Shown here: one piece after another, positions 1,136-43,648 of the stretch
Position numbering within the stretch: position 1 is the stretch's first letter
Layout: every line of letters begins with the position of its first letter
Assembly (NCBI GenBank): GCA_017446685.1
Contig: JAFSQI010000093.1
Span: forward strand, 1-43,858
Direction: 5' to 3'
Length of the DNA stretch: 43,858 bases
From: Butyrivibrio sp.
GTDB lineage: Bacteria > Bacillota > Clostridia > Lachnospirales > Lachnospiraceae
Notes under the pieces: model-generated
What the model was told of the DNA's origin: nothing
What the model saw: only the letters and a program-made list of their open reading frames with translations
The model's database searches: none
Made by a program: the position numbers and the translations under genes

Positions 1136-1855
1136 ATGGGAAACAAAGATGATGTTCTTGAAATTAACTTAGGCGAGCTTTTTTCGGTATTACTCGGTAG
1201 AGCGTTTCTGATAATCAGTGCCGGAATATTTTTTGCACTTTCAGGGCTGTTTGTGAGTAAATTTGTCATTCCTCCGAAATATGAGTCAACAACAAAGATT
1301 TATATTTTAAATAAAGAGGAAAATCAGACGGTTACATATTCTGATGTTCAGATTTCCACACAGCTCACTCAGGATTATGCAGAGCTTATAAAATCCAGGC
1401 GAGTGCTTGAAGAGGTCATTCAGAGAGTTCATCTGACAGATGTGGAATATGAGGATCTCTATGATGTCCTTAGGGTGGATACCCCGTCAGATACGAGAAT
1501 AGTAGCCATAACTGTAAAAGACAAGGATCCGCTCATGGCAATGAAGATAGCAAACTGCATTCGAGAGGTTGCCAGTGAACATATCACCGACGTTATGGAT
1601 ATTGATGCCATTAACATCGCTGAGACAGCAAATGTTCCGACAGATAAAGCGAGCCCGAGCGTTGCTAAATGGACTGTTATATCCGGCCTTGCAGGAGCTG
1701 TGGTCGTGGCATTTTTTGCAATACTTGGATATCTTTTGGACGATACCATTAAGAGCAATGATGATATAGAGAGGTATCTGGGCGTAAGTACTTTGGCTCT
1801 CATTCCTTTAATGACAGATGAAAACGGCAAGAAAAAGAAGAAAAACAAATCATGA
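1136..1855 (+). CDS. cpsC: Wzz-type polysaccharide co-polymerase (CpsC/YveK, kinase modulator)
   Basis: This is a chain-length determinant membrane protein that in Firmicutes also activates the separate CpsD kinase. Its 239 residues match the short Gram-positive type with two membrane segments, at about residues 22-42 and 178-201, flanking an extracytoplasmic Wzz domain. The second segment is preceded by a proline-containing stretch (ASPSVAKW) and followed by a basic cytoplasmic tail ending in a KKKKKNK-like run, the part expected to contact the kinase. A GGGGAG ribosome site lies just upstream of the ATG. The 100-base gap after cpsB is AT-rich with no obvious gene. A second Wzz domain is fused to a kinase at 14699. 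Confidence 0.92.
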   Translation: MGNKDDVLEINLGELFSVLLGRAFLIISAGIFFALSGLFVSKFVIPPKYESTTKIYILNKEENQTVTYSDVQISTQLTQDYAELIKSRRVLEEVIQRVHLTDVEYEDLYDVLRVDTPSDTRIVAITVKDKDPLMAMKIANCIREVASEHITDVMDIDAINIAETANVPTDKASPSVAKWTVISGLAGAVVVAFFAILGYLLDDTIKSNDDIERYLGVSTLALIPLMTDENGKKKKKNKS

Positions 1856-12107: not shown

Positions 12108-12578
12108 ATGGAAAAACATGCCATTAAAATTGCTTTCGTCGCTTCCTCCGGGGGACATTTGGAGGAAATATCCAGACTAAAAGCAATAGAAGAGAACTAT
12201 AACTGTTTTTTGGTTACAGAAAAAAGCGATTTTGAGGTGAAGGATTTCTGCAAAAAAAGGTATTATGTACCTATGATGAATAGGCGGCAGATGTCGTTTA
12301 TACCTAAGTTTATGTTGCTATTTTTGAAAACATGGATGATTCTTTTAAAGGAAAAGCCTGACTTTATCATAACGACAGGTGCGCTTGTTGCGTATCCGTT
12401 TTGTGTGGTGGGCAAGCTTTTGGGAATCAAGGTAATTTATGTTGAATCGTTCGCAAGAGTAAATGAGCCTTCACTCACCGGAAAACTTGTATATAACATG
12501 TCTGACCTTTTTATGGTGCAGTGGGAAGATATGCTTGAAAAGTATCCGAAGTCTATGCTTGGAGGTAGCATCTTTTGA
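12108..12578 (+). CDS. Alg14-like glycosyltransferase membrane subunit (PssD/Cps14F type)
   Basis: This protein resembles Alg14, the membrane subunit that recruits the Alg13-like catalytic partner. The 156 residues begin with KIAFVASSGGHLEEI, where the SGGHL motif is diagnostic. A hydrophobic stretch at about 63-80 and a YVESFARV motif near residue 112 follow. Together with the next gene it should form a two-part GT-B enzyme that adds a second sugar (beta-1,4-linked in Cps14F/G and PssD/E precedents) to the lipid-linked first sugar on the cytoplasmic side. It is the first gene of the long operon and overlaps the next by 4 bases. Confidence 0.88.
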   Translation: MEKHAIKIAFVASSGGHLEEISRLKAIEENYNCFLVTEKSDFEVKDFCKKRYYVPMMNRRQMSFIPKFMLLFLKTWMILLKEKPDFIITTGALVAYPFCVVGKLLGIKVIYVESFARVNEPSLTGKLVYNMSDLFMVQWEDMLEKYPKSMLGGSIF

Positions 12579-13054
12579 TTTTTGTAACTACCGGTTCGCA
12601 AAAATTACAAATGAACAGACTTGTTAAGGCTGTTGATAAATTGCAGACGACTATTTCAGAAGAAATATTTGTACAAAAAGGCTGGTCGGACTATATTCCG
12701 GTCAATTGCAGGTACACGGATTTTTTGGATTCAAATGAGTATGACAAAATGATTTCAGAGTGCAGTATTTTGATTACTCATGCGGGAGTGGGAACTATTA
12801 TAACCGGTCTAAATGCTAAAAAACCGGTAATAGTGGTTCCCAGAAGAAATAAATATTTGGAACATGTTGACGATCATCAATGTCAGATTGCTGAAGCATT
12901 TGCGTCGAAGCATTGTGTGCTAAGGTGTGATGATGTTGAAAAACTTAAAGAATATATTGAAAAGGCCGGAAAATTTGACTTTAAGCCATACAAGTTTAAG
13001 GTTGGAAATATTGAGAACACAATTATGAATTATATCAATATATTTGAGAAGTAG
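12575..13054 (+). CDS. Alg13-like glycosyltransferase catalytic subunit (PssE/Cps14G type)
   Basis: These 159 residues form the C-terminal half of a GT28/GT-B enzyme that binds the nucleotide sugar. They begin with MIFVTTGSQ, have ILITHAGVGTIITGL near residues 66-80 and a KPVIVVPRRNKYLEHVDDHQ segment, all typical of the Alg13 family. The start is a TTG at 12575 overlapping the previous TGA (TTGA), with GGAGGT at 12561-12566. It should complex with the Alg14-like protein, which supplies the membrane anchor. Confidence 0.9.
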   Translation: MIFVTTGSQKLQMNRLVKAVDKLQTTISEEIFVQKGWSDYIPVNCRYTDFLDSNEYDKMISECSILITHAGVGTIITGLNAKKPVIVVPRRNKYLEHVDDHQCQIAEAFASKHCVLRCDDVEKLKEYIEKAGKFDFKPYKFKVGNIENTIMNYINIFEK

Positions 13055-13094
13055 TATTTATAAGCTATAGTTTTTAGTGGTTAGGGCAGTAACA

Positions 13095-14378
13095 ATGAAT
13101 CGCAGTAACAAAGGGGCTAATACAAATATCATACAGATGTTTGAGGACATAGTTGTCCTTTTGTTGGTATACCTGATTGAGCGTAGGATATTTGAGAATG
13201 TTATCGGAAAAGAGACAAGTCTCAAATGTCTTGCGCTCGTTGTGGTTTTTTGCGCAATTTACATTCTGGCTAATAAAGAGGCGAGAATATACAATGTAAC
13301 ATTGTTTTTTTATATGGACAGGTTTTGGCGGATCCTTTCTAAATCATGGCTTTTAGCCGCTGTTATCACAATGGGACTTATGTATGTATACAATCCGCAG
13401 GATAATGTCAGAAGTTTTCATCTTCATTTTCTTGGAGCGACATATATCGCCATTTGTATAAACATGGTATTCAGCAGGTTTATTCAAATGGCACTGAACA
13501 ATTATCAGGCGCCCAGAGCTGCTTATGTGGGAACTTTTGAGGAATATGAGAAATTTCATTATTTTCTCAACAAGACAAGTCTTAAGGTTGCTGAACTAGG
13601 TTATATACTTGAAGGAAAAGTTCCGGAAAATAAGGTATTTAATGTTCTTGGTCAAATAGATGAACTGGAAAATATCATACGAAAGAATGAACTTGACCAG
13701 GTGTATTTTATCATGCATAGCGATGATAATATTGCCAGGATACAGCCATTTATTGATATATGCCTTGAGATGGGTATTACTGTCAGGGTAGTAATGGATG
13801 TTTCATATTCGCAGCAAATGTATTCGTCAAACAGTTATGTCAGTTCTATTGGAACTTTTCCTGTTATCACATATCATACTGTGGCACTTAACAGTTATGA
13901 ACAGTTTATAAAAAGACTGATGGATTTGCTTATTTCATTGACTTGTGGAGTGATTGTTTCTCCGATTATGGTTACCACTGCTGTGGTGGCTAAATTAGTA
14001 TCTAAAGGCCCGGTTATTTATAAGGAAAAACGGATTGGATTAAATGGCAGACAATTCGACCTCTACAGATTTAACGGGATTAAAACAAAGCTTGGCATAG
14101 AAAATCTCCCTCAACTTTTTAATGTTATTAAGGGAGATATGAGTCTTGTTGGAACAAGACCACCTACAGTAGCCGAACTTGATACTTTTGAGCGCAGTCA
14201 GTGGCGAAGAGTAAGTATTAAACCCGGACTTACCGGTTTATGGCAGACCGGCAATCAAATCGAAAGTAATTCTGTAGAGCTGGATCTTAGATATATAGAC
14301 AGCTGGTCTATATGGTCGGACATGATAATTCTTGTAAAGTCACTTGGAATTTGGATAACAGGAAGAACAGTTCATTAA
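13095..14378 (+). CDS. Phosphoglycosyl transferase homologue lacking the catalytic segment (probable pseudoenzyme)
   Basis: This is a WbaP/EpsL-like protein of 427 residues: five or so N-terminal membrane segments, a CoA_binding_3-like middle region and a C-terminal Bac_transf domain from about residue 270. I chose the ATG at 13095 because the intact paralogue at 41081 begins with the same MNRSN-GA; a GTG lies at 13077. In the paralogue the motifs are KFRSM and, 44 residues later, the catalytic DE of SIDELPQ. Here KFRSM reads RFNGI (325-329), 37 residues are missing, and DE reads EN (336-337). The flanking GRQF, VGTRPPT and IKPGLTGLWQ motifs remain. It is therefore probably not an active initiating transferase. 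Confidence 0.85.
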   Translation: MNRSNKGANTNIIQMFEDIVVLLLVYLIERRIFENVIGKETSLKCLALVVVFCAIYILANKEARIYNVTLFFYMDRFWRILSKSWLLAAVITMGLMYVYNPQDNVRSFHLHFLGATYIAICINMVFSRFIQMALNNYQAPRAAYVGTFEEYEKFHYFLNKTSLKVAELGYILEGKVPENKVFNVLGQIDELENIIRKNELDQVYFIMHSDDNIARIQPFIDICLEMGITVRVVMDVSYSQQMYSSNSYVSSIGTFPVITYHTVALNSYEQFIKRLMDLLISLTCGVIVSPIMVTTAVVAKLVSKGPVIYKEKRIGLNGRQFDLYRFNGIKTKLGIENLPQLFNVIKGDMSLVGTRPPTVAELDTFERSQWRRVSIKPGLTGLWQTGNQIESNSVELDLRYIDSWSIWSDMIILVKSLGIWITGRTVH

Positions 14379-14406: not shown

Positions 14407-14670
14407 ATGGATATGAAAGAGACTGTAAAGTTAAAGAAAAATTTAAGTGTAACAGATTTATCCGGAGAAAAGGTTATGATTGATTTTGATTCCGGAAAAT
14501 ATTTCATGATCAAGGGTTCAGGCAATGATATATGGGATCTTATTCAGGAAGAAACTACTGTTGAGGAAATAGTGGATAAGCTTCTGGAAGAATATGATGT
14601 TTCAAGAGAAACTTGTACCGAGTCAGTTGTGTCATTCCTTGAAAAGCTTAAGGAGCTGAATTTTATTTGA
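14407..14670 (+). CDS. PqqD-like protein (RiPP recognition element fold)
   Basis: These 87 residues match PF05402: an N-terminal beta part with a FDSGKYFMIKGSGNDIWDLI core at about 26-45, then helices with TVEEIVDKLLEEYDV and a C-terminal SVVSFLEKLKELNFI. PqqD-type domains bind leader peptides of ribosomal peptides, or act as small partners in other clusters. No precursor peptide, radical SAM enzyme or cyclase lies next to it; gaps on both sides are 28 bases. AGAGGAG precedes the ATG. The operon also has a nucleotidyltransferase (23977) and an ABC exporter (27162), both seen with PqqD in lasso-peptide clusters. Its partner here is unknown. Confidence 0.82.
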   Translation: MDMKETVKLKKNLSVTDLSGEKVMIDFDSGKYFMIKGSGNDIWDLIQEETTVEEIVDKLLEEYDVSRETCTESVVSFLEKLKELNFI

Positions 14671-14698: not shown

Positions 14699-16120
14699 AT
14701 GCTAAATATTATTCTACAGAATTTTCATCTGGAAAAACTATTTTGGATAATTAAATCAAAATTAAAATATATAGTTTTTTGTGGGCTGTTTACAGGATTG
14801 ATTATAGGAGCATTTACTTTTTTTACCAGGACACAGACATATATGGCTCAAATATCCTTGTATGTTTATACAAATCCTGACTATATAACAGATAATGGTA
14901 TAAACATTTCTGCAACAGATATTTCCAATGCCAATTCACTGCTTAGCAGCTATACTCAGATTCTTAAAAGCAACAGCTTTCTGAGCAGCGTAATAGAAGA
15001 TGCTGATCTTGATCCTGAGGTGTACTCGATTAAAGAGCTAAAGAGCAATATAACATCTTCTGCTGTGAGTGGAACTGCAGTTTTTAAAGTAAATGTTTTT
15101 GACGAGAATCCATATAATGCAATGCTGATTGCAAATACGATCGGCAAACTTGCACCTCAGAAAATTATTGATGTAGTTAAGTCAGGAGGCATAGAAGTTC
15201 TTGATGAAGCTACATTACCTACAGAACCTTATAAGTCCACAAGTGTTTCAATGATGATTCTGATAGGAATAGTGATTGGTGCCGGATTTACAATGGTCAT
15301 ATTTATTATTACGGGGCTATTGGATACCAGATACAGAAGGGTTTATGAAGTAGAGGATATGTTTAATATTCCCATACTTGGTAAGGTCCCTCAGATTACA
15401 GAAAAAAATGAAAACGGCACTAATAAAGTGATGCTCACAGAAGAGAGCCCTTTTGTTTTAAGGGAAGCCTATAACGATATCAGGACAAATCTTTTGTTTA
15501 TGGGACAGGGACAGAAGTGTCCGGTATTTGCGGTGACAGGGGCAGATTATGACGAAGGAAAAACTACAAATGCAATAAATGTTGCAATTGTATTTGCTAA
15601 TATGGGTAAGAAAACACTTCTTATCGATGCTGACCTTCGAAATGGCAATATCGCTTCGGAGTTTGGAATTGAGGCTGAGCCCGGATTAAGCGAGTACCTG
15701 GCAGAATTATCACCTTTTGTAAATCCAAGAAGACAGGTCAGGGAGAATCTTGATATTATCACTACAGGAAAAATCCCACCTAATCCAACAGATCTTTTGA
15801 TTAGTGAGCGATGGAAAAAGCTGATTGAGAGCAAAAAGAACGAGTATGATATCATTATTCTTGATACGCCATCTATAGGAGTTGTGGCGGATGGTATTGA
15901 GGTTGTAAATGTTGCTACCGCGTTTATAGTTGTTGTAAGGGAGTGGGTTTCAAGATTTGAGCGTGAAAACCTCATCATTGGGAGATTAGAGACTGTAGAT
16001 GCCAATATCTGTGGATTTATTTATAACGGAATTGACGTTAAGTCAGCAGATTTTAATCATAAAGACTATGTTAATGGTGGGGAGTATGGTAAGTATAGTA
16101 ATACCAGTGTACAACACTGA
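14699..16120 (+). CDS. Fused Wzz co-polymerase and BY-kinase
   Basis: A single 473-residue chain combines a Wzz domain (membrane segments at about 24-44 and 184-206) with a cytoplasmic BY-kinase domain, as in proteobacterial Wzc but shorter. Walker A is in residues 280-290 (GADYDEGKTT), where Tyr and Asp replace the usual Pro-Gly before EGK; Walker A' is LLIDADLR at 307-314 and Walker B is IIILDTPS at 385-392. The tail has only three tyrosines (457, 463, 466), against twelve in the separate kinase at 1877. It probably controls chain length for this operon. The 3' end overlaps the next gene by 35 bases. Confidence 0.9.
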   Translation: MLNIILQNFHLEKLFWIIKSKLKYIVFCGLFTGLIIGAFTFFTRTQTYMAQISLYVYTNPDYITDNGINISATDISNANSLLSSYTQILKSNSFLSSVIEDADLDPEVYSIKELKSNITSSAVSGTAVFKVNVFDENPYNAMLIANTIGKLAPQKIIDVVKSGGIEVLDEATLPTEPYKSTSVSMMILIGIVIGAGFTMVIFIITGLLDTRYRRVYEVEDMFNIPILGKVPQITEKNENGTNKVMLTEESPFVLREAYNDIRTNLLFMGQGQKCPVFAVTGADYDEGKTTNAINVAIVFANMGKKTLLIDADLRNGNIASEFGIEAEPGLSEYLAELSPFVNPRRQVRENLDIITTGKIPPNPTDLLISERWKKLIESKKNEYDIIILDTPSIGVVADGIEVVNVATAFIVVVREWVSRFERENLIIGRLETVDANICGFIYNGIDVKSADFNHKDYVNGGEYGKYSNTSVQH

Positions 16121-18015: not shown

Positions 18016-19389
18016 TTGCAGGCTATAACAGAAAATACAAGTAAATATTTTAAAGCTCCGAGGGAAAAAGTTATATTTTATCGTTGTGCAGTAGTATATA
18101 TATTTGCACTTTACATTATGCCACAGTATTTTGGTATTCCAAATCCTATTTTTGATCTTACTGCTGTCAGAATAATGATAATTGTGTTGTTAGGGCTGAT
18201 AGTGTGCGATTATGGGCGATTTAGAAGCTTTAACAGCCTGTTTTTAAAGGAAAAAGCTGCAATAGCGCTTTTGCCATATTTATTTGTGCTTGCGTATACC
18301 ATGTTTTTTAGAGCGGATATAAATGCTTTTTTAAATCCATTTATAGAGATATTAGAAATGTTTCTTATGGTATACGTCATAAAAGACAGTCTGGGAACGG
18401 ATAAAGTTATAAAAATGGTTACCGCATTTATTTATGCGCTGGTAATACTCGGAATAATTGAATTTTTTATCAAGGTTTCTCCGTTTTCCTTTATGGTTAA
18501 TCTTGAGGGAGTATATACCGGAGTATTTATAAGAGGCGGTCATTACAGAGTTATGAGTAATTGTGTGCATTCGCTTGGATACGGACTGCTTCTTACAACA
18601 GCTATGCCATTTTCGGGATATGATGTAAAAAACGGAGAGTACAATATCTTAAGACGTCCTTTACTTCTTATAGGTATTATTGTGAATATTTTTATGACAG
18701 GTTCACGTTCTACGCTGGGAATAATGTTTTTGGAATTATTCTTGATGTTCGTGATATCTGAAAAAAAATATCTGAAAAATAATACACTTATTCTGACAGC
18801 ATGCGTGGTCAGTTTTGCACTGTTTACTTTTCTGGCGCAAAAGACATCTATTGGAAATTATATTTTGCTTCAGCTTACAAGCGTTATAGATTCTATTTTT
18901 GATACAAAACTGGCTGAGAATTTTGGATCAAGTTCTATTTCCATGTCAAGCAGCACAGCATACAGGCATTATCTTTATAATATTTTCAGTGTGTCCTGGC
19001 TTAATCCTATTGTGGGAATTGGGAGAAAGAGATCTTTTCATGCAATGGTAAATGGTGTGCTGATAAGATCTGTTGATAATTTTTATATTGCAGAATATAT
19101 AAGATATGCTTATCCGGGAATGATAGCATATATCTTTTTCCTTCTGTTCATGTTAGGTAGCATGTTAAGGGATATTTTTATCACAAAATCATCTCTTATT
19201 AAAGCTCTTTTTGTAGGAGCATTTTGTTACGTGATGCATTTAACTGTTGTAGATTCACTGCAGACACTTAAATATTTATATGTTCTTTTTGCAATTTACA
19301 TTTGCTGTGACAAGGAGAAAAAACTACCAGAAGTTGAAGAAATCAGCTTATATAGAGGAAAAAGGAAATCAAAATATGCCAGGAAGTGA
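18016..19389 (+). CDS. wzy: Wzy-like polysaccharide polymerase
   Basis: This 457-residue integral membrane protein has about ten to twelve hydrophobic segments spread over residues 25-425 and a large loop in the second half (about 275-335) containing SSSISMSSSTAYRHYLY and GIGRKRSF. A TGSRSTLG motif near residue 233 resembles O-antigen polymerase/ligase proteins. It should join lipid-linked repeat units on the outer face after Wzx flipping. The start is a TTG with AAGAGGA upstream. It overlaps the next gene by 14 bases. The assignment rests on topology and context, as Wzy proteins are poorly conserved. Confidence 0.75.
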   Translation: MQAITENTSKYFKAPREKVIFYRCAVVYIFALYIMPQYFGIPNPIFDLTAVRIMIIVLLGLIVCDYGRFRSFNSLFLKEKAAIALLPYLFVLAYTMFFRADINAFLNPFIEILEMFLMVYVIKDSLGTDKVIKMVTAFIYALVILGIIEFFIKVSPFSFMVNLEGVYTGVFIRGGHYRVMSNCVHSLGYGLLLTTAMPFSGYDVKNGEYNILRRPLLLIGIIVNIFMTGSRSTLGIMFLELFLMFVISEKKYLKNNTLILTACVVSFALFTFLAQKTSIGNYILLQLTSVIDSIFDTKLAENFGSSSISMSSSTAYRHYLYNIFSVSWLNPIVGIGRKRSFHAMVNGVLIRSVDNFYIAEYIRYAYPGMIAYIFFLLFMLGSMLRDIFITKSSLIKALFVGAFCYVMHLTVVDSLQTLKYLYVLFAIYICCDKEKKLPEVEEISLYRGKRKSKYARK

Positions 19390-23956: not shown

Positions 23957-23976
23957 TAGTTGCATAGGGAAATTTG

Positions 23977-25137
23977 ATGGAAAAAGTAGTTTTTAGAACT
24001 TATTTACGAGAACTAATCACAGCCTCCTTTGAGAATAGATGTCCGAGCCCCTTACCTGATGGTATAACCACTGATATGATCATTGATGTGGCTAGAAGTA
24101 ATCATATGTTCAAGATGCTTTTAGAGTCGCTCATTAAGATTTCAGATGACAAAGAAAAAGTTGAGAAAATGCAACATATTTTAAAAATTTCACAGCATAA
24201 GGCTTTTTTTCAGAACATTGAAATTAGAATGATATCGCAGGCACTTGAGAATAATGGTATAAAGCATCAGATTTTAAAGGGCGGTGTACTTCGTTTTATG
24301 TATCCTGCTCCTGAATACAGAGAAATGAGTGATATTGATATCGTCGTGTATGATGATAGTCTGGAAAAGACCACGTCAGTTATGGAAGGTATCGGCTATG
24401 TCAATAAAGGTCTTATTAAGCATCATGCGATATTAAAAAAAAGAAACGGCGTTATTGCTGAAATACACTGGTGCTTATATGACAGGAATGTAGATAGAAG
24501 CCAGTATATTTACTACAAGGATACTTTCAGATCAAAGCTTTCAAAAGGAAAAAACTATACATATGAGTTTGGAAAAGAAGATTTTTATATTTATATGATT
24601 TCTCATATGGCAAAGCACTTCTTTGAGACAGGATGTGGAATACGTAATCTTGTTGATATTTACATATATTGGACTCGTTTTGAAAAAGATATGGACAAGG
24701 AATATTTGTCGGATGAGCTTAAAAAGTGCGGCACATTTGTCTTTGAAAAAAAGATGAGAGAGCTCTCTTTTATCTGGATGGAGCAAAAAGAATGTCCGGA
24801 GTTTTTTGAGAATCTTTTTTCTTACATGCTGGATAGTGGTATTTATGGAAAAAGTGAAAATGGAATCTGGAGCCAGCTTGCAAAAGAAACTGTCGATGGC
24901 AGCAGCAATCTGAAGATGCACTATTATTTTCCTTCTTTGAAATTTATGAGGGAAAAATATCAATGGCTTGAAAAAATGCCTTTTCTTCTGCCTGTTGCCT
25001 GGGGAGTCAGAGGAATATGCGGTATGTTCAGCAGGCAGTCCAGAGAGCACAAAAAAGAGTTTACAGGTGCAGATGCGGTGAAAACTAAGGAAATGTTGGA
25101 TATTTATCATGGATTACAACTTGATTTCAGAAGATGA
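23977..25137 (+). CDS. NTP_transf_5 family nucleotidyltransferase
   Basis: This 386-residue protein has the minimal nucleotidyltransferase core of PF14907: HQILKGGVLRFMYPAPEYREMSDIDIVV at about residues 90-117, where the KGG helix and the D-x-D of SDIDIVV are the nucleotide and metal sites. EIHWCLYDR supplies a third acidic residue. Family members occur in lasso-peptide clusters and polysaccharide loci; their targets are mostly unknown. The start at ATG 23977 has AGGGA upstream; a TTG one codon earlier is possible. It overlaps the Stealth gene by 4 bases, which suggests linked function. Confidence 0.82.
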   Translation: MEKVVFRTYLRELITASFENRCPSPLPDGITTDMIIDVARSNHMFKMLLESLIKISDDKEKVEKMQHILKISQHKAFFQNIEIRMISQALENNGIKHQILKGGVLRFMYPAPEYREMSDIDIVVYDDSLEKTTSVMEGIGYVNKGLIKHHAILKKRNGVIAEIHWCLYDRNVDRSQYIYYKDTFRSKLSKGKNYTYEFGKEDFYIYMISHMAKHFFETGCGIRNLVDIYIYWTRFEKDMDKEYLSDELKKCGTFVFEKKMRELSFIWMEQKECPEFFENLFSYMLDSGIYGKSENGIWSQLAKETVDGSSNLKMHYYFPSLKFMREKYQWLEKMPFLLPVAWGVRGICGMFSRQSREHKKEFTGADAVKTKEMLDIYHGLQLDFRR

Positions 25138-27161: not shown

Positions 27162-28853
27162 ATGAGTGCAATCAATAAAGTAAAAAAGTATTGGAACAGA
27201 AAAGAAGATGCAGTTGTGTATTTTAAATGGGTACTTGGTTATACGAAACCATATATTCCACAACTGGCATTTTTGATGATAGTTGATCTTATATCGACAT
27301 TATTATCAGTTAGCATGGCTATTATAGGAAAGAGGATGATTGATAAGGCATCTATGGGAATGGTGTCTGATCTTTGGACAATAATTATAATGTATGTATT
27401 TGTTATTATTGGATCTGAAGGCCTGACAATGGTAAGCAATATGCTCTCCGTAGTAATAAACGAGAAATTTACTTTCGGCATTAGAAAAAAGGTATTTAGA
27501 AGAATACTTGATACAAACTGGCTTGATATATCAAAATATCATTCCGGTGATCTGATGACAAGGCTTACAAGTGACGTACAGTCAATATCAGAAGGAATTT
27601 CTAATACGATTCCTACAATTATCAGATTGATCATAGAGCTTTTAGTCACATTTGTTACATTATCATACTATGATATTCGACTGGCACTTTTTGCACTTCT
27701 TGTTGCTCCTATTGCTATGCTTGCAAGTTTCATACTTGGTAGACAGCTTAAAAAGCTACAGGTTAAGGTTCAGGAATCAGAATCTAAATATCGTTCATTT
27801 ATGCAGGAAAGTATAGCAAACATTCTTATTGCAAAGTCTTTTTGTCTTGAAGAATATTCCGAAAACAAACTTCAGACACTTAGAGATGAGAGAATGTACT
27901 GGGTGTTTAAGCGCAGTAAAGTTAATATGTATGCTTCTGCTGCTATTGGCCTTTCTTTTCAGCTTGGCTACGTAGTAGCTTTTGCATGGGGCGCGATATG
28001 TATAGCCAACAAAGCAATAAGTTACGGCACGATGACTGTATTTTTACAACTTGTTAACAGGATTCAGGGACCGATTATTTCATTGGCGCATTATGTTCCT
28101 TTAGTCATTTCGATGCTTGCTTCTGCAGGAAGAGTAATTGAGCTTCAGAAGCTTTCAAAGGAAAAGAGGACAGGAGAGAAAATTGAGCCGGAAAACATTG
28201 GAGTAAAGGTTAATGATATTACCTTCGGATATTCAGATGAAAATGTGTTTGAAAACGCAGATATTGAGTTTAAACCCGGAGATTTTACAGCTATAGTTGG
28301 TAAATCAGGAATAGGAAAGACTACTCTTGTAAGGCTTATTATGGCTTTCACGGACAAGTACAAGGGTGATATCACTTTTTACAACAATCAGGGCCAGACT
28401 ATGAAGGCAAGTCCGGATGCCAGAGAGTTCATTGCTTATGTTCCTCAGGGAAATACGCTTTTTAGCGGTACTATCAGAGAAAACATACTTATGGGTAAAA
28501 AGGATGCTACTGATGAAGAAATCATTGAAGCATTAAAAAGTGCAGCGGCCTATGATTTTGTCAAAACTTTCCCCAAGGGAATAAATACTGTAATTGGTGA
28601 AAAAGGTGTTGGCATTTCAGAGGGACAGGCTCAGAGAATTGCTATAGCAAGAGCGCTTGTAAAAAAAGCTCCTTTTCTTATTTTGGATGAGGCTACGTCA
28701 TCTCTTGATGAAAAAACAGAGCTCAGTGTACTTGAAGGAATTAGAAAATGGAATCCTTCGCCAACATGTCTTTTGATTACACACAGAAGATCTGTTTTAT
28801 CATATTGTGACAGAGAGATAGTTATTTCCGGTAAAAAAATGGAAATTGTATAA
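27162..28853 (+). CDS. ABC exporter half-transporter (fused permease and ATPase)
   Basis: This 563-residue type IV ABC half-transporter has six N-terminal membrane segments (to about residue 305) and a nucleotide-binding domain from about 340. Walker A is VGKSGIGKTT near 384-393, the Q-loop is YVPQGNTLF, the signature is ISEGQAQR instead of the common LSGGQ, Walker B is FLILDEATSSLDE, and the H-loop is LLITHRRS. It should work as a homodimer. Its cargo is unknown: a lipid-linked glycan, or a peptide given the PqqD-like and nucleotidyltransferase genes. A Wzx flippase is also present downstream. The two-component genes follow directly. Confidence 0.9.
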   Translation: MSAINKVKKYWNRKEDAVVYFKWVLGYTKPYIPQLAFLMIVDLISTLLSVSMAIIGKRMIDKASMGMVSDLWTIIIMYVFVIIGSEGLTMVSNMLSVVINEKFTFGIRKKVFRRILDTNWLDISKYHSGDLMTRLTSDVQSISEGISNTIPTIIRLIIELLVTFVTLSYYDIRLALFALLVAPIAMLASFILGRQLKKLQVKVQESESKYRSFMQESIANILIAKSFCLEEYSENKLQTLRDERMYWVFKRSKVNMYASAAIGLSFQLGYVVAFAWGAICIANKAISYGTMTVFLQLVNRIQGPIISLAHYVPLVISMLASAGRVIELQKLSKEKRTGEKIEPENIGVKVNDITFGYSDENVFENADIEFKPGDFTAIVGKSGIGKTTLVRLIMAFTDKYKGDITFYNNQGQTMKASPDAREFIAYVPQGNTLFSGTIRENILMGKKDATDEEIIEALKSAAAYDFVKTFPKGINTVIGEKGVGISEGQAQRIAIARALVKKAPFLILDEATSSLDEKTELSVLEGIRKWNPSPTCLLITHRRSVLSYCDREIVISGKKMEIV

Positions 28854-30399: not shown

Positions 30400-31944
30400 A
30401 TGAGTGGTAGAGCTAAGAATTCAGCACATAATGCAGCAATGGGGTTTATTTACCATTTTTCGGGGACCTTGCTTAGTTTTGTTTCAAGAACAATATTTAT
30501 TAGTACACTCGGAAAAGAGTATCTTGGACTAAACGGTATTTTTTCAGATGTGTTGTCACTTTTGTCGATGGCAGACCTTGGCTTTTCAACAGCTATGGCG
30601 TACAGCTTTTACAAGCCTCTTGCTGATAAGGATGAGGAAAAAATTGCTTCGCTTATTGCTTTTTACAAAAAGATATATAATGTCATAGCAATGGTGGTTT
30701 TGGGACTTGGATTATTATGTATACCATTTCTTAAATTTATCATTAATACGCAGGAAGATATTCCTTATCTTGAGGTATATTATCTTTTTGCTCTTTCAAA
30801 TGTTGTGTTGTCTTATCTTTTTGTGTATAAGACAACACTTCTCACTGCAGATCAAAAGGATTACAAGGTCGTAAAAATTAGAAATATCATGCAGTGGGTA
30901 AGGACAATACTTAGAATAATAGTTCTTCTGGTGTGGAAAAACTACATCATTTATCTCGCGATAGGTACAGCGACAGTACTGATAAATAATTTTGCGGCAT
31001 CAAGTGCAGCAGAGAAGGAATATCCATACATAAAAAATATCAAAGGAAAGATTGGAGAAGAATTTGATATTAAAAAGAAGATAGTTGAGAATATGAAGTC
31101 TGTTTTTATTTATAAGGCTTCGGGCACGCTTTTCAACGCCACTGACAATGTGATAATCTCTAAGATAATCAGTACTTCAGCGGTAGGAGTATATTCAAAT
31201 TATCTTTTACTTAGCAGCAAGCTTCTTTTGTTTATTCAAATCATTTTTTCATCAATGACTGCCAGTATCGGAAATGTAATTGCTAAGGACAGTTCAAAAA
31301 AACGTTTTGAAGTTTTTGAGGCTCTTCAATCAATCAGTTTTATTTTTTGCGGCATTATTGCCACCTTGTTTTGTGTCATGGCAAATGATGTGATAAGAAT
31401 CTGGCTTGGAGATTCTTTTCTTTTGTCTAAAACAGTAGTAATTGCGATTACAGGTAATACATATCTGTCATGTGTGCTTCTTCCATTGTGGACTTACAGG
31501 GATGCTTCGGGGTTATATCTTAAAACCAAGTATGCAATGCTGTTTGGAGCAATAGAAAATGTTGTTTTATCTATTGTGCTGGGGCATTTTATAGGTCTTG
31601 CGGGAATAATATTTGCATCAGCTATTTCGCGAATAACCTCTTACTGCTGGTATGAACCAAAACTGTTATTTAAAGAGTATTTTGAAAAAGATTATAAGCC
31701 ATATTATTTTAGTATTTTAAAACATATTCTGTTGTTGACAATTGTAATAGCAGCCTTTGAATTTTGCTGGTCAAAATATGATGTTAATGGAATTGTCAGT
31801 CTTTTTATAAAGGGAATAACAACAGGAATGCTAAGCTGTTTTATATTTTTTATGGCATTTCGAAATACTGATGGAGCGAAGACTATAATATATAAGGCAA
31901 AGCAGGCATTGCAGGCAATTAAGAAAAAAATATCAGGTAAGTGA
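30400..31944 (+). CDS. wzx: Wzx-type lipid-linked oligosaccharide flippase
   Basis: This 514-residue MOP-superfamily protein has about twelve to fourteen membrane segments. The N-terminus (STLGKEYLGLNGIFSDVLSLLSMADLGFSTAMAYSFYKPLADKDE region, residues 33-80) is the typical start of Firmicutes polysaccharide flippases. It moves undecaprenyl-linked repeat units to the outer face. It lies 6 bases after the kinase gene and ends 9 bases before the ATG chosen for the next glycosyltransferase. With Wzy and the Wzz-kinase it completes a Wzx/Wzy pathway. Confidence 0.92.
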   Translation: MSGRAKNSAHNAAMGFIYHFSGTLLSFVSRTIFISTLGKEYLGLNGIFSDVLSLLSMADLGFSTAMAYSFYKPLADKDEEKIASLIAFYKKIYNVIAMVVLGLGLLCIPFLKFIINTQEDIPYLEVYYLFALSNVVLSYLFVYKTTLLTADQKDYKVVKIRNIMQWVRTILRIIVLLVWKNYIIYLAIGTATVLINNFAASSAAEKEYPYIKNIKGKIGEEFDIKKKIVENMKSVFIYKASGTLFNATDNVIISKIISTSAVGVYSNYLLLSSKLLLFIQIIFSSMTASIGNVIAKDSSKKRFEVFEALQSISFIFCGIIATLFCVMANDVIRIWLGDSFLLSKTVVIAITGNTYLSCVLLPLWTYRDASGLYLKTKYAMLFGAIENVVLSIVLGHFIGLAGIIFASAISRITSYCWYEPKLLFKEYFEKDYKPYYFSILKHILLLTIVIAAFEFCWSKYDVNGIVSLFIKGITTGMLSCFIFFMAFRNTDGAKTIIYKAKQALQAIKKKISGK

Positions 31945-34083: not shown

Positions 34084-34125
34084 AACTGATGCGCTTGTTT
34101 AGATTAGCGCATCAGTTTTATTTTT
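34084..34125. terminator. Terminator of the main polysaccharide operon
   Basis: Bases 34084-34094 pair perfectly with 34107-34117 around a 12-base loop, followed by TTTATTTTT on the plus strand. The convergent PP-loop gene has its TAA stop in the loop, so both transcripts end here. The minus-strand side lacks a strong U-run. Confidence 0.85.
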
Positions 34126-35378
34126 CTTAATATTTTTTTTATTCTGGGATGTGAGTACCTTTGCTTAAGTTTTAAAGACAATTGTCTGGAGTATTCTTCA
34201 AAGTCGAATTTGGTAAACCATTCATACCATTCGTAGTTTTTGATTTTATCTTTGTTTAGTTTCATTAACTTTTGAACAGGAACATAATAACGGCTGATTC
34301 CTGCATCATTAATCTCAAGGCTATAGCTTTTTAAGCTTTTTTCAAAGGCTTTTACAGATTCTATATTCCATTCGAAAGCAAAATCATTTGGATCGGCGCC
34401 TTCTGCTATAATTTCCAAAATGGTACGATAACATTTTTCGCAATGGCAGCAGTTCTTTCCTTCGGCTTGTTGAAAGCACACATGAACTTTTGCGAAGTGG
34501 TGAGTGTTGTTTCCCTGCTGACAAAGATAGTGTATTTTATTCTGCCGGTTAAGCTCATAGCCATCATGAACAATCTTTGTAAAACCAAATCGGATATGAT
34601 TATCTATTGTCGGATCGCTGGCGCAGGTATAAGTGTTTTTCTGGTCTTTTGAAAAGCTTGAAGCTATATAGATAGTTGATAAGTTGTACTTATAAGCAAC
34701 TGCGGCTCCGTGGCTTATTATTCCTATACCATGTTGGAAACCATGCCACCACCTGTCACCGGAGGGCTCGAGGAAACGAATAAGAGCCCCCTCGTTGAAT
34801 AATAATCTGAATTCACTGGAAATAAAAATATTTTCAAGTGAATATTCTGCGGAGGCAATTTTTGTCAAAGAGGAAAGGCTGTCCCATCCCTTTAAATCGT
34901 CAAGTTTTATATCCGCCCCGTGCAATGTCAAAAGAAAGGGCTTTTCATCCAGATGTCGAAAAAGAGTGGTGTATGCGTCAACTCCGCCGCTAAAAAATGA
35001 AGCTGTGTTTCGTAAGGCTGTTTCTTTTGGTGTTTGAAATTCATTATATAGTTTCTTAACAATTACATTTCCATTAAATGGCATTCTGGGATACATTTCC
35101 TGATAACCTTTTCGTACATCTTCTATGCAATAATAAAAGGCGCTGTCCAGTGCCGGGACAGTAAGTGTCACATTAAAAAGGAAAATAAAAGGCAGAAAAT
35201 TTCCTGCAAAGGTAACGTTTAAGATACTTTCCGGAATATCATTTATATCAAAAGGATATTTAACAGCAAAATTCCTCTTGGGATATAGATATTTTGCTAT
35301 ATCTCCTGATACTTCATAGATAAAGTTAACTAATTGATTGTTTTTTTCTGTTTTGACAAGTTGGATTGTATTGTTCAT
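34104..35378 (-). CDS. QueC-like PP-loop protein of unknown function
   Basis: This 424-residue protein has an N-terminal region of about 120 residues with no family I recognise, then a PP-loop ATP-pyrophosphatase motif FFSGGVDAYTT at 128-138 (Ala replaces the usual final Ser of SGGxDS). Cysteines at 301, 310, 313 and 316 follow exactly the C-x8-C-x2-C-x2-C zinc pattern of QueC, with CEKCYRTIL. Such enzymes adenylate a carbonyl or carboxylate before attack by a nitrogen or sulfur nucleophile. Queuosine genes are absent; it sits between two pyruvyl transferases, so a glycan-modifying role is inferred, not shown. Confidence 0.72.
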   Translation of the reverse strand: MNNTIQLVKTEKNNQLVNFIYEVSGDIAKYLYPKRNFAVKYPFDINDIPESILNVTFAGNFLPFIFLFNVTLTVPALDSAFYYCIEDVRKGYQEMYPRMPFNGNVIVKKLYNEFQTPKETALRNTASFFSGGVDAYTTLFRHLDEKPFLLTLHGADIKLDDLKGWDSLSSLTKIASAEYSLENIFISSEFRLLFNEGALIRFLEPSGDRWWHGFQHGIGIISHGAAVAYKYNLSTIYIASSFSKDQKNTYTCASDPTIDNHIRFGFTKIVHDGYELNRQNKIHYLCQQGNNTHHFAKVHVCFQQAEGKNCCHCEKCYRTILEIIAEGADPNDFAFEWNIESVKAFEKSLKSYSLEINDAGISRYYVPVQKLMKLNKDKIKNYEWYEWFTKFDFEEYSRQLSLKLKQRYSHPRIKKILRKIKLMR

Positions 35379-41080: not shown

Positions 41081-42475
41081 ATGAATCGTTCTAACACAGG
41101 TGCGTCTTTTGATAGTGTTCATATTATTTTGGACATTTTTATTTTGGTATTGGCATTTATTGTTTCATTTTCTTTTTGGGGAAACACAATAAATTCTACT
41201 TTGCAGCTTAGGGCTTTTGCATCAGTTTATTTGGTATGCATTATAATTTTCCTATTATCAAACAGGACTGCTAATATATATAATAATACAATTTTCTTTT
41301 ATATAGACAGGATTGTGAGGAGAGAAACCTTTTCTTTTATATTGGCGGTTGTTTCCGGCATTATATTGATTCTAAATGTTTCTGACATCGGCACTGCTAA
41401 AAGATTCCTTATAGGAATTGCATGTGTTTCTTATGGATTAATTATCTTGGAAATCTTGTTTTTCCGAAATATTATTGATCGTATTATTATGAGAAGACAT
41501 GTACCAAGAGTATTATATGTCGGAAGCAAGGATTCTTATAATAAGTTCAGATATTTTCTAAAAAAGACTTCAATTATTGTAAATGAAATCGGTTATATTA
41601 GTTTTGAAGAGGATGACTCTATTGAATATATTGGTAAACTTCAGGATTTAGAGAAAATCATCAGAAAGTATAACATTGATCAGGTATATATTCTTCAAAA
41701 AAGAGAAATGGATATTCCTTATTTACAGAAGTACATAGATATCTGTATCGAAATGGGTGTAACCTGTAGGGTTATTATTGATACTTTCAGACGTAGAAAG
41801 TCATATTCATATGTCAGCAGTATAGGTACATATCCGGTATTTACATTTCATACTGTCACTATGAATAATATGCAGAAGGTCATAAAGAGGATTTTCGACA
41901 TTCTATTTTCTATTTTTGCTATAGTGATTACTTCTCCAATCATGATTATTACTGCTATAGCAATCAGAATTGATTCTCCGGGCCCTGCATTGTTCAAACA
42001 GGTAAGAGTTGGTAAGAACGGACGTCATTTCAAAATATGGAAATTCCGTAGTATGTATCAGAATGCGGATGATATGAAAGCTCAACTTCAAGAACTCAAT
42101 CAGGTAAAAGATGGAATGATGTTCAAGATAAAGGATGATCCTCGTATCACAAAAGTTGGAAAATTCATTAGAAAAACGAGCATCGATGAATTACCGCAGT
42201 TCTTTAATGTGCTGGCAGGATCAATGAGTGTAGTTGGTACAAGACCACCGACAATCGATGAGGTTGAGAAATATTCTATGCATCAATGGCGTAGAATCAG
42301 TATTAAGCCAGGAATTACCGGAATGTGGCAGGCTAATGGAAGAAGTTCTATAACAGATTTTGATGAAGTGGTAGAACTTGATACAGAGTATATCGATGAA
42401 TGGAGTATGGGACTGGATATCAAGTTGCTGTTTAAAACAGTTTCAGAAGTGTTTGGACGTAGAAATTCATATTAA
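41081..42475 (+). CDS. Undecaprenyl-phosphate sugar phosphotransferase (intact polyprenol PGT)
   Basis: This enzyme starts repeat-unit synthesis by moving a sugar 1-phosphate onto undecaprenyl phosphate. The 464-residue protein has about five N-terminal membrane segments, a CoA_binding_3-like middle region and a complete Bac_transf domain: KFRSM at 321-325, the catalytic Asp369-Glu370 within SIDELPQ, VGTRPPT and ISIKPGITGMWQANGR. It is the intact paralogue of the protein at 13095, with which it shares the N-terminal MNRSN-GA start. GGAGAAAAAG precedes the ATG. It opens a second polysaccharide locus and may serve both. Confidence 0.93.
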   Translation: MNRSNTGASFDSVHIILDIFILVLAFIVSFSFWGNTINSTLQLRAFASVYLVCIIIFLLSNRTANIYNNTIFFYIDRIVRRETFSFILAVVSGIILILNVSDIGTAKRFLIGIACVSYGLIILEILFFRNIIDRIIMRRHVPRVLYVGSKDSYNKFRYFLKKTSIIVNEIGYISFEEDDSIEYIGKLQDLEKIIRKYNIDQVYILQKREMDIPYLQKYIDICIEMGVTCRVIIDTFRRRKSYSYVSSIGTYPVFTFHTVTMNNMQKVIKRIFDILFSIFAIVITSPIMIITAIAIRIDSPGPALFKQVRVGKNGRHFKIWKFRSMYQNADDMKAQLQELNQVKDGMMFKIKDDPRITKVGKFIRKTSIDELPQFFNVLAGSMSVVGTRPPTIDEVEKYSMHQWRRISIKPGITGMWQANGRSSITDFDEVVELDTEYIDEWSMGLDIKLLFKTVSEVFGRRNSY

Positions 42476-42496: not shown

Positions 42497-43648
42497 ATGA
42501 AAATTGCGATGATTGGGCACAAGAGAATACCATCGAGAGAAGGCGGGGTAGAAATAGTAGTTGAGGAATTAGCTACACGTCTTGTCCAAATGGGACATTC
42601 TGTTACAGTATACAACAGAAAGGGAAAGAATGTTTCGGATAAGGATGCAGATCTCGAAGCACATAAGCTTAAGAGTTACAAAGGAATAAGGATAGTTCAT
42701 GTACCTACGCCGGATAAAAAGTCACTTAACGCAATAGTATATTCTTTTTTGGCTACAATATGTGCTCTTGTGGGTAATTATGATGTTATTCATTACCATG
42801 CAGAGGGCCCGTGCTCAATGTTGATAATTCCACATTTCTTCGGAATAAGGACAATTGCAACAATTCATGGATTGGATTGGCAGAGAGCGAAGTGGGGAGG
42901 ATTTGCGACCAAATTTTTGAAGTTTGGTGAAAAGTGTGCAGCAAAATATGCTGATGAGGTTATAGTTTTATCGACTAATGTTCAGCAATATTTTAAAGAT
43001 ACATATAACAGAGAAACAATTTATATTCCAAATGGAGTAAATAAGACTGAGTTTCGTGAACCGGAAATTATTACTCAGAAGTTTGGACTGGAAAAAGAAA
43101 AATATATCCTATATTTGGGGCGTCTTGTTCCGGAGAAGGGCATTACATATTTAATGGAGGCATACTCTAAGATTGATACAGACATTAAGCTTGTAATAGC
43201 AGGTGGAGCGAGTCATTCAAGTGATTATACAAAACAGCTTTATGACCTTGCTCAAAAAGATGACAGAATTGTTATGACAGGATTTGTCCAAGGCAATCTT
43301 TTGGCAGAACTATACAGCAACTGTTATCTATATTGTCTTCCGAGTGATATAGAGGGTATGCCGATAAGTCTTCTTGAAGCAATGAGCTTTGGACGTAAGT
43401 GCCTTGTTAGTGATATTCCGGAGAATGTTGAGGCATGCCGTGATTATGCCCATTATTTTCAAAAATCGAATGTGGAAGATTTAAGTAAAAAACTTAAAGA
43501 AGCACTTGAAAATCCGGATAGTTTTCATTCAATGGATGAGATCATGGATTATTGCTATCGCCGTTTTGACTGGAATAAAGTGACCGGAGCAAGTGCAAGA
43601 TTGTATATCGATGCAATTCTTAACGTTGAAAGAATTGATAAAGTATGA
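42497..43648 (+). CDS. GT4 family glycosyltransferase
   Basis: This 383-residue GT-B enzyme has an N-terminal acceptor domain with KIAMIGHKRIPSREGGVEIVVEELATRL (the GG loop near residues 16-17) similar to DUF1972-type rhamnosyltransferases, and a Glycos_transf_1 domain with YILYLGRLVPEKGI near residue 204 and EGMPISLLEAMSFGRK near residue 285, where the E-x7-E-like motif binds the nucleotide. AAGGGA lies upstream. It probably adds the second sugar after the initiating transferase, 21 bases upstream. No further genes follow before the hairpins at the window end. Confidence 0.92.
   Translation: MKIAMIGHKRIPSREGGVEIVVEELATRLVQMGHSVTVYNRKGKNVSDKDADLEAHKLKSYKGIRIVHVPTPDKKSLNAIVYSFLATICALVGNYDVIHYHAEGPCSMLIIPHFFGIRTIATIHGLDWQRAKWGGFATKFLKFGEKCAAKYADEVIVLSTNVQQYFKDTYNRETIYIPNGVNKTEFREPEIITQKFGLEKEKYILYLGRLVPEKGITYLMEAYSKIDTDIKLVIAGGASHSSDYTKQLYDLAQKDDRIVMTGFVQGNLLAELYSNCYLYCLPSDIEGMPISLLEAMSFGRKCLVSDIPENVEACRDYAHYFQKSNVEDLSKKLKEALENPDSFHSMDEIMDYCYRRFDWNKVTGASARLYIDAILNVERIDKV

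Follow-up and report, generated by a model that had tools for sequence, protein, structure and literature searches.

What becomes of a polysaccharide locus when the gene in its initiating place seems to have lost its active site? The question is raised by a 43,858-nucleotide stretch of DNA from Butyrivibrio sp. (GCA_017446685.1, contig JAFSQI010000093.1, positions 1 to 43,858 of the forward strand), hereafter the window, which is one whole contig of a draft genome (3.24 Mb, 137 contigs, 88.75% complete). The gene in question encodes a homologue of the large phosphoglycosyl transferases (Lg-PGTs) that lacks the catalytic segment, and we refer to its product as the pseudo-PGT. The sequence comparisons described here support the view that the catalytic site has been lost while the remainder of the protein has been kept, and we consider it probable, if well short of settled, that the pseudo-PGT is a retained pseudoenzyme (a scaffold or regulator) and that polymer initiation is supplied in trans. 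Searches of an open-access library turned up no previous description of a dead PGT; the papers retrieved concern engineered mutants and WbaP. The gene and its parts are as follows:

13095..14378, plus strand: pseudo-PGT, an Lg-PGT homologue without the catalytic segment (427 amino acids from the ATG)
13095..13871, plus strand: N-terminal half, comprising a helical membrane part, a Rossmann-like domain of unknown function (DUF) and a hairpin; usual constraint
13872..14375, plus strand: catalytic half, active site altered, from counts of invariant sites
14067..14105, plus strand: junction RFNGI-KTKLG-I-EN, replacing KFRSM, the loop, RKTSI and DE, from the orthologue alignment
14247..14273, plus strand: second lost motif, TGNQIESNS replacing the SGRN segment and four residues shorter, from the orthologue alignment

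The reading frame is open from the ATG at 13095 to the stop at 14378; an alternative start, GTG at 13077, would give 433 amino acids. Between the end of the KFRSM strand and the catalytic dyad, 36 residues are missing relative to the orthologues and 37 relative to an intact paralogue at 41081, in which KFRSM-to-DELPQ spans 53 residues as against 16 here. KFRSM has become RFNGI and DELPQ has become ENLPQ, so that the Asp-Glu dyad reads Glu-Asn (codons at 14100-14105), while GTRPPT and IKPGLTGLWQ are both retained. The original prediction, made from the sequence of this window, had described the clean frame, the 37-residue gap, the altered motifs and the conserved remainder of the domain, all of which the alignments bear out; it had missed a second lesion, in which SGRN has become GNQI and the next four residues are gone, as well as a change in the last residues of the C-terminal tail. 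The Bac_transf profile (PF02397) still matches at 134.2 bits against a cut-off of 27 and TIGR03025 at 233.5 bits, below its cut-off of 295.55; both matches are split into two stretches, those of TIGR03025 with the missing segment between them. Nothing as short was seen in an alignment of 58 PGTs (56 of the 67 listed full-length frames, six orthologues included, plus the two window proteins), where the F-to-P interval is 12 residues in the pseudo-PGT and 20-61 in the others. In 40 same-genus genomes there are 261 Bac_transf matches, and all but four of them (257) span about 525 bases or more, by the lengths of the listed matches, as against 444 in the pseudo-PGT.

Of 78 other same-genus genomes, 11 carry an orthologue of the pseudo-PGT that matches at E 1e-60 or better, and the named records with a close relative are Butyrivibrio isolates and bins. 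Both the catalytic segment and the Asp-Glu dyad are present in all 11, so the loss is lineage-specific. At sites that are otherwise invariant, the N-terminal (membrane/DUF) half of the pseudo-PGT has changed at 3 of 90, as against 26 of the 95 remaining in the catalytic half, where 17 more have been deleted; given these 26 further changes, the deletion is not fresh. The original prediction had named intact orthologues, as the sign of a recent local deletion, among the findings that would refute it; by that test it is half refuted, the loss being local to this lineage but not recent. A search for other genomes with the same shortened orthologue, also proposed there, turned up none among the matches shown from 79 genus genomes (E 1e-60 or better) and 397 family genomes (E 1e-22 or better). 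A few of the family matches (e.g., G483 and G174) cross the junction ungapped, in frames of the usual length (493 and 489 amino acids). The neighbourhood seems ordinary by the same measure: in a locus-wide count over the window and five orthologous loci that have long flanks and a complete gene order, L029 excluded, eight other locus genes show invariant-site changes in or near the normal range, the window's Alg13 being slightly higher than that of the other loci (0.128 vs. 0-0.113).

The main rival explanation is slow decay of the catalytic half: the gene may be on its way to loss, with constraint on catalysis lifted first, since polymer initiation can be taken over by another PGT, and with the N-terminal half surviving for lack of time or because its loss would harm the membrane. 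We regard this as unlikely, though it deserves serious weight, and several points speak for it or against a retained pseudoenzyme. The shortened form occurs in one genome only, leaving no second sequence to show selection after the loss, and seven other PGTs are present in the genome. In genome G058 (L017, G058:C41, approximately 1520-1535, reverse strand), this PGT carries different damage: a gap of about 570 bases has removed the end of alg13 together with the initial ~85 codons of the PGT; the PGT may thus be dispensable, and this copy with its intact catalytic half is either a mirror image of the pseudo-PGT or an assembly fault. At 88.75% completeness, an intact second copy could be missing from the genome. 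The window was also compared with one more sequence than the others, which makes its N-terminal half and neighbours look slightly more normal, and the structural model of the pseudo-PGT leans on aligned intact relatives. Whole-gene decay would, however, strike the N-terminal half equally, whereas the counts given above fall very largely on the catalytic half. Both indels are in frame, and the gene is free of stops, as only 2.5% of neutral runs are. Finally, in codon fits that left out L017, an omega of 1 over the whole pseudo-PGT branch was rejected for both halves, with synonymous sites saturated and the fit for the C-terminal half at a bound.

It is very unlikely that the pseudo-PGT is instead a still active PGT with a rebuilt site in which Glu replaces the Asp nucleophile. 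Its structural model, with helices at 6-135 and an alpha/beta part at 141-260, keeps the PGT fold and many residues of the domain, and the motifs of the re-entrant helix, matched by eye, are also kept (KR 273, SP 289 and LDLRYID 396, whose Asp pairs with Lys, in the 427-residue numbering; the roles of the Lys-Arg, the Ser-Pro and the Lys-pairing Asp are as given in passages of PMC6133551). A Synergistaceae PGT (L097 4579-5988) with a loop interval of just 20 residues keeps its Asp-Glu dyad, and judging from that sequence a short loop by itself need not mean loss of catalysis. Asp-Glu is nevertheless kept in all 57 other PGTs of the 58-PGT alignment, and the dyad partner in the pseudo-PGT is Asn. 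In PglC, a mobile loop (residues 61-81) closes on active-site occupancy, and Arg88 and Arg145 matter in binding of undecaprenyl phosphate (UndP), according to the portion of PMC10519829 that deals with them. In our reading, the missing stretch corresponds to this mobile loop and the two arginines, matched by eye, to RKTS and SGRN; both predicted UndP-binding positions are gone, the first deleted and the second changed (R394Q in the 433-residue numbering). On these grounds the pseudo-PGT should not catalyse. Least likely of all is an assembly or binning error, which a draft of 137 contigs invites but which we rejected as sole cause because 26 in-frame substitutions at the invariant sites of one domain are hardly an error and the flanking genes look normal.

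The retained pseudoenzyme that we favor sits among genes whose order is shared across the genus:

12108..12578, plus strand: Alg14/PssD-like glycosyltransferase subunit, from profile matches and locus comparison
12575..13054, plus strand: Alg13/PssE-like glycosyltransferase subunit, from profile matches and locus comparison
14407..14670, plus strand: PqqD-family protein, adjoining the orthologous PGT in all 11 other genomes compared
14699..16120, plus strand: Wzz and bacterial tyrosine kinase (BY-kinase) chain-length protein, from profile matches and locus comparison
18016..19389, plus strand: Wzy-like polymerase, with a Wzy_C match below the curated cut-off
30400..31944, plus strand: Wzx-like flippase, from a profile match

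The window thus reads Alg14/PssD, Alg13/PssE, pseudo-PGT, PqqD-family protein, Wzz-BY-kinase, two family 2 glycosyltransferases (GT2) and the Wzy-like polymerase. We compared it with twelve orthologous loci from the 11 other genomes, all 11 of which keep the Alg14-Alg13-PGT-PqqD order (in G058 with the damage described above). Wzz-BY-kinase comes next in nine of the 11, being absent in L029 and L108, and two GT2 genes, Wzy and Caps_synth also follow in five other loci with long flanks; L029 diverges downstream. Judging from this conserved order, the pseudo-PGT is orthologous to the PGT that holds the initiating place in a Wzx/Wzy-type polysaccharide locus conserved in the genus, the place that the original prediction had assigned to it. 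Other features of the window are of separate interest. The PqqD-family protein scores 83.8 against 80, above the NCBIfam lasso-peptide PqqD cut-off, though it lies inside a polysaccharide locus, and a Pfam scan of 40 window proteins matched no radical SAM or lasso gene. The same stretch holds an uncharacterised nucleotidyltransferase (NTP_transf_5) and an ABC transporter (23974-25137 and 27162-28853), a mix with the PqqD-family protein that we take to be reminiscent of peptide-modification clusters. A 424-residue open frame with no Pfam match at E 1e-5 (34104-35378, minus strand) is flanked by two pyruvyl transferases.

If the pseudo-PGT does not start the polymer, which enzyme does? The intact paralogue is the nearest candidate:

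41081..42475, plus strand: intact Lg-PGT paralogue with DELPQ, from profile and sequence comparison
42497..43648, plus strand: group-1 glycosyltransferase with DUF1972, adjoining the intact PGT, from a profile match and locus comparison

The two window PGTs are 38% identical over a nearly full-length alignment. Besides the pseudo-PGT, the genome encodes seven Bac_transf proteins, the 41081 paralogue among them, and the Asp-Glu dyad is intact in every one; the polytopic MraY/WecA family (PF00953) is matched once. Relatives of the 41081 protein adjoin a group-1 glycosyltransferase like that at 42497 in 13 of 13 other loci examined, and DELPQ is kept in all 13, for which reason the 41081 PGT looks like the starter of its own, separate locus; G055 carries intact copies of both PGT types. 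The original prediction had cast the pseudo-PGT as a possible partner of this second copy. We found nothing to tie the two beyond the contig they share, and we rejected a dedicated partnership on the strength of the neighbourhood in which the 41081 relatives lie. Also rejected was import of the dead half from the other PGT type: the tree of the C-terminal half groups the pseudo-PGT with its orthologue L009, apart from the 41081 type, a grouping that is starred but in which the pseudo-PGT branch is long (1.51). Initiation in trans, the other part of that prediction, fares better, in that any of the seven intact-dyad PGTs could start the polymer if the locus works. The next enzymes at the two loci are of the Cps14F/G and DUF1972 types, and to judge from these both loci would plausibly use undecaprenyl-pyrophosphate-linked glucose (Und-PP-glucose), so that the 41081 enzyme or another PGT could act as the supplier. 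A described precedent, in part of PMC11340318, is that of HfsE, PssY and PssZ, which supply Und-PP-glucose redundantly.

Is the pseudo-PGT alone in having lost this part of the domain? The first half of Bac_transf is absent in four of the 261 matches noted above: one is a remnant with a stop, and the other three are frames of 675-695 amino acids in which a GT2 domain is joined to a membrane/DUF-like part and to a PGT-like domain that has neither loop nor dyad. A wider search of 79 genus genomes added G116 and a copy in G114 that is truncated where its contig ends; neither the tree nor the fits include the G114 copy. The whole fusions, from G037, G041, G012 and G116, are:

L127 417-2501, L128 885-2909, L129 281-2365 and L181 4489-6648 (minus strand): GT2-pseudo-PGT fusions in four same-genus genomes

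Each is accompanied on the same strand by a PGT with an intact dyad, directly adjoining in G037 and at distances of about 0.7 kb in G116, 11 kb in G041 and 15 kb in G012. In the G041-G012 pair, identity is 67% over the dead domain, as against 85-88% for the rest, and an omega of 1 is rejected by 113 units with t and synonymous change at the bound; the dead domain thus appears to be under purifying selection between these two. For G012-G116, omega is 0.12 at 28% identity (2dlnL 32.6, t at the bound). The G041-G037 and G037-G116 fits were dropped, omega being at the bound with a negative likelihood gain. The fusions resemble the pseudo-PGT in having lost the same segment and dyad, in keeping the membrane/DUF part and in lying near an intact PGT on the same strand, and they differ from it in being joined to a GT2 domain and in their separate origin: the tree, from which L017 was left out, forces two origins on starred branches, with a warning about long branches. 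Because this family has been kept without catalysis, the genus can evidently keep a PGT domain in that state, which raises the odds that the pseudo-PGT is kept as well. For the many two-gene GT2 and PGT pairs in the wider search, the judgement was based solely on stops and on the lengths of the frames; its GT2/PGT results include frames of 1141 and 1073 amino acids in G049 and G052. In G025, a PGT domain is followed by what was judged by eye to be a group-1 or group-4 glycosyltransferase in one 673-residue frame (L130 329-2347, minus strand).

What might a PGT without catalysis do? Membrane helices and a DUF precede the PGT domain of the pseudo-PGT, as in the large (WbaP-like) architecture, and the hairpin sequence SYVSSIGTFPVITYHT is present at 247. 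Passages of PMC4361858 report for WcaJ, WbaP and Cps2E that the C-terminal half is active by itself and that altering the middle domain affects chain length, the assembly of the polymer or the rate of initiation; in the WbaP structure work, the relevant part of PMC10942596 assigns most of the dimer contact to the DUF and implicates it in uridine-nucleotide binding. Both papers, in these parts, describe the job of the N-terminal half as unclear. In light of this work, a protein left with only the job of its N-terminal half could set flux or chain length, by itself or in a mixed dimer with an active PGT. We picture the pseudo-PGT as descended from the initiating-place PGT of the conserved Butyrivibrio locus and as possibly remaining membrane-bound as a DUF dimer, with itself or with an active Lg-PGT. 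It would keep only the non-catalytic job of the N-terminal half, e.g., control of flux or chain length, or a docking role for the Alg13/14 pair, while the first lipid-linked sugar, perhaps Und-PP-glucose, would be made by another PGT. More tentatively, and with the balance somewhat against it, large PGTs in the genus may have lost the same catalytic stretch at least twice and been kept as non-catalytic subunits with active PGTs, in which case initiation would be the work of assemblies of enzyme and pseudoenzyme rather than of a lone gatekeeper. A natural protein that keeps the N-terminal half, together with a second family seemingly under selection, would allow that half's job to be tested apart from catalysis, and the pseudo-PGT warns against assuming that the PGT gene of a polysaccharide locus always encodes the enzyme that starts the polymer.

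Set beside known systems, the pseudo-PGT departs from the large monotopic PGTs, or polyisoprenyl-phosphate hexose-1-phosphate transferases (WbaP, WcaJ, CpsE; PF02397, TIGR03025), in lacking the mobile loop, in its Glu-Asn dyad and in the loss of the UndP-arginine positions; the 41081 paralogue, at 372.1, clears the TIGR03025 cut-off that the pseudo-PGT misses. Compared with the small PGT PglC (PDB 8e37, 8g1n), it lacks the catalytic residues and has an extra N-terminal half. A further parallel is with the N-truncated but active WcaJ-CT and WbaP-CT, which, in the account given in part of PMC4361858, likewise show the two halves to be separable; unlike them, the pseudo-PGT keeps the opposite half.
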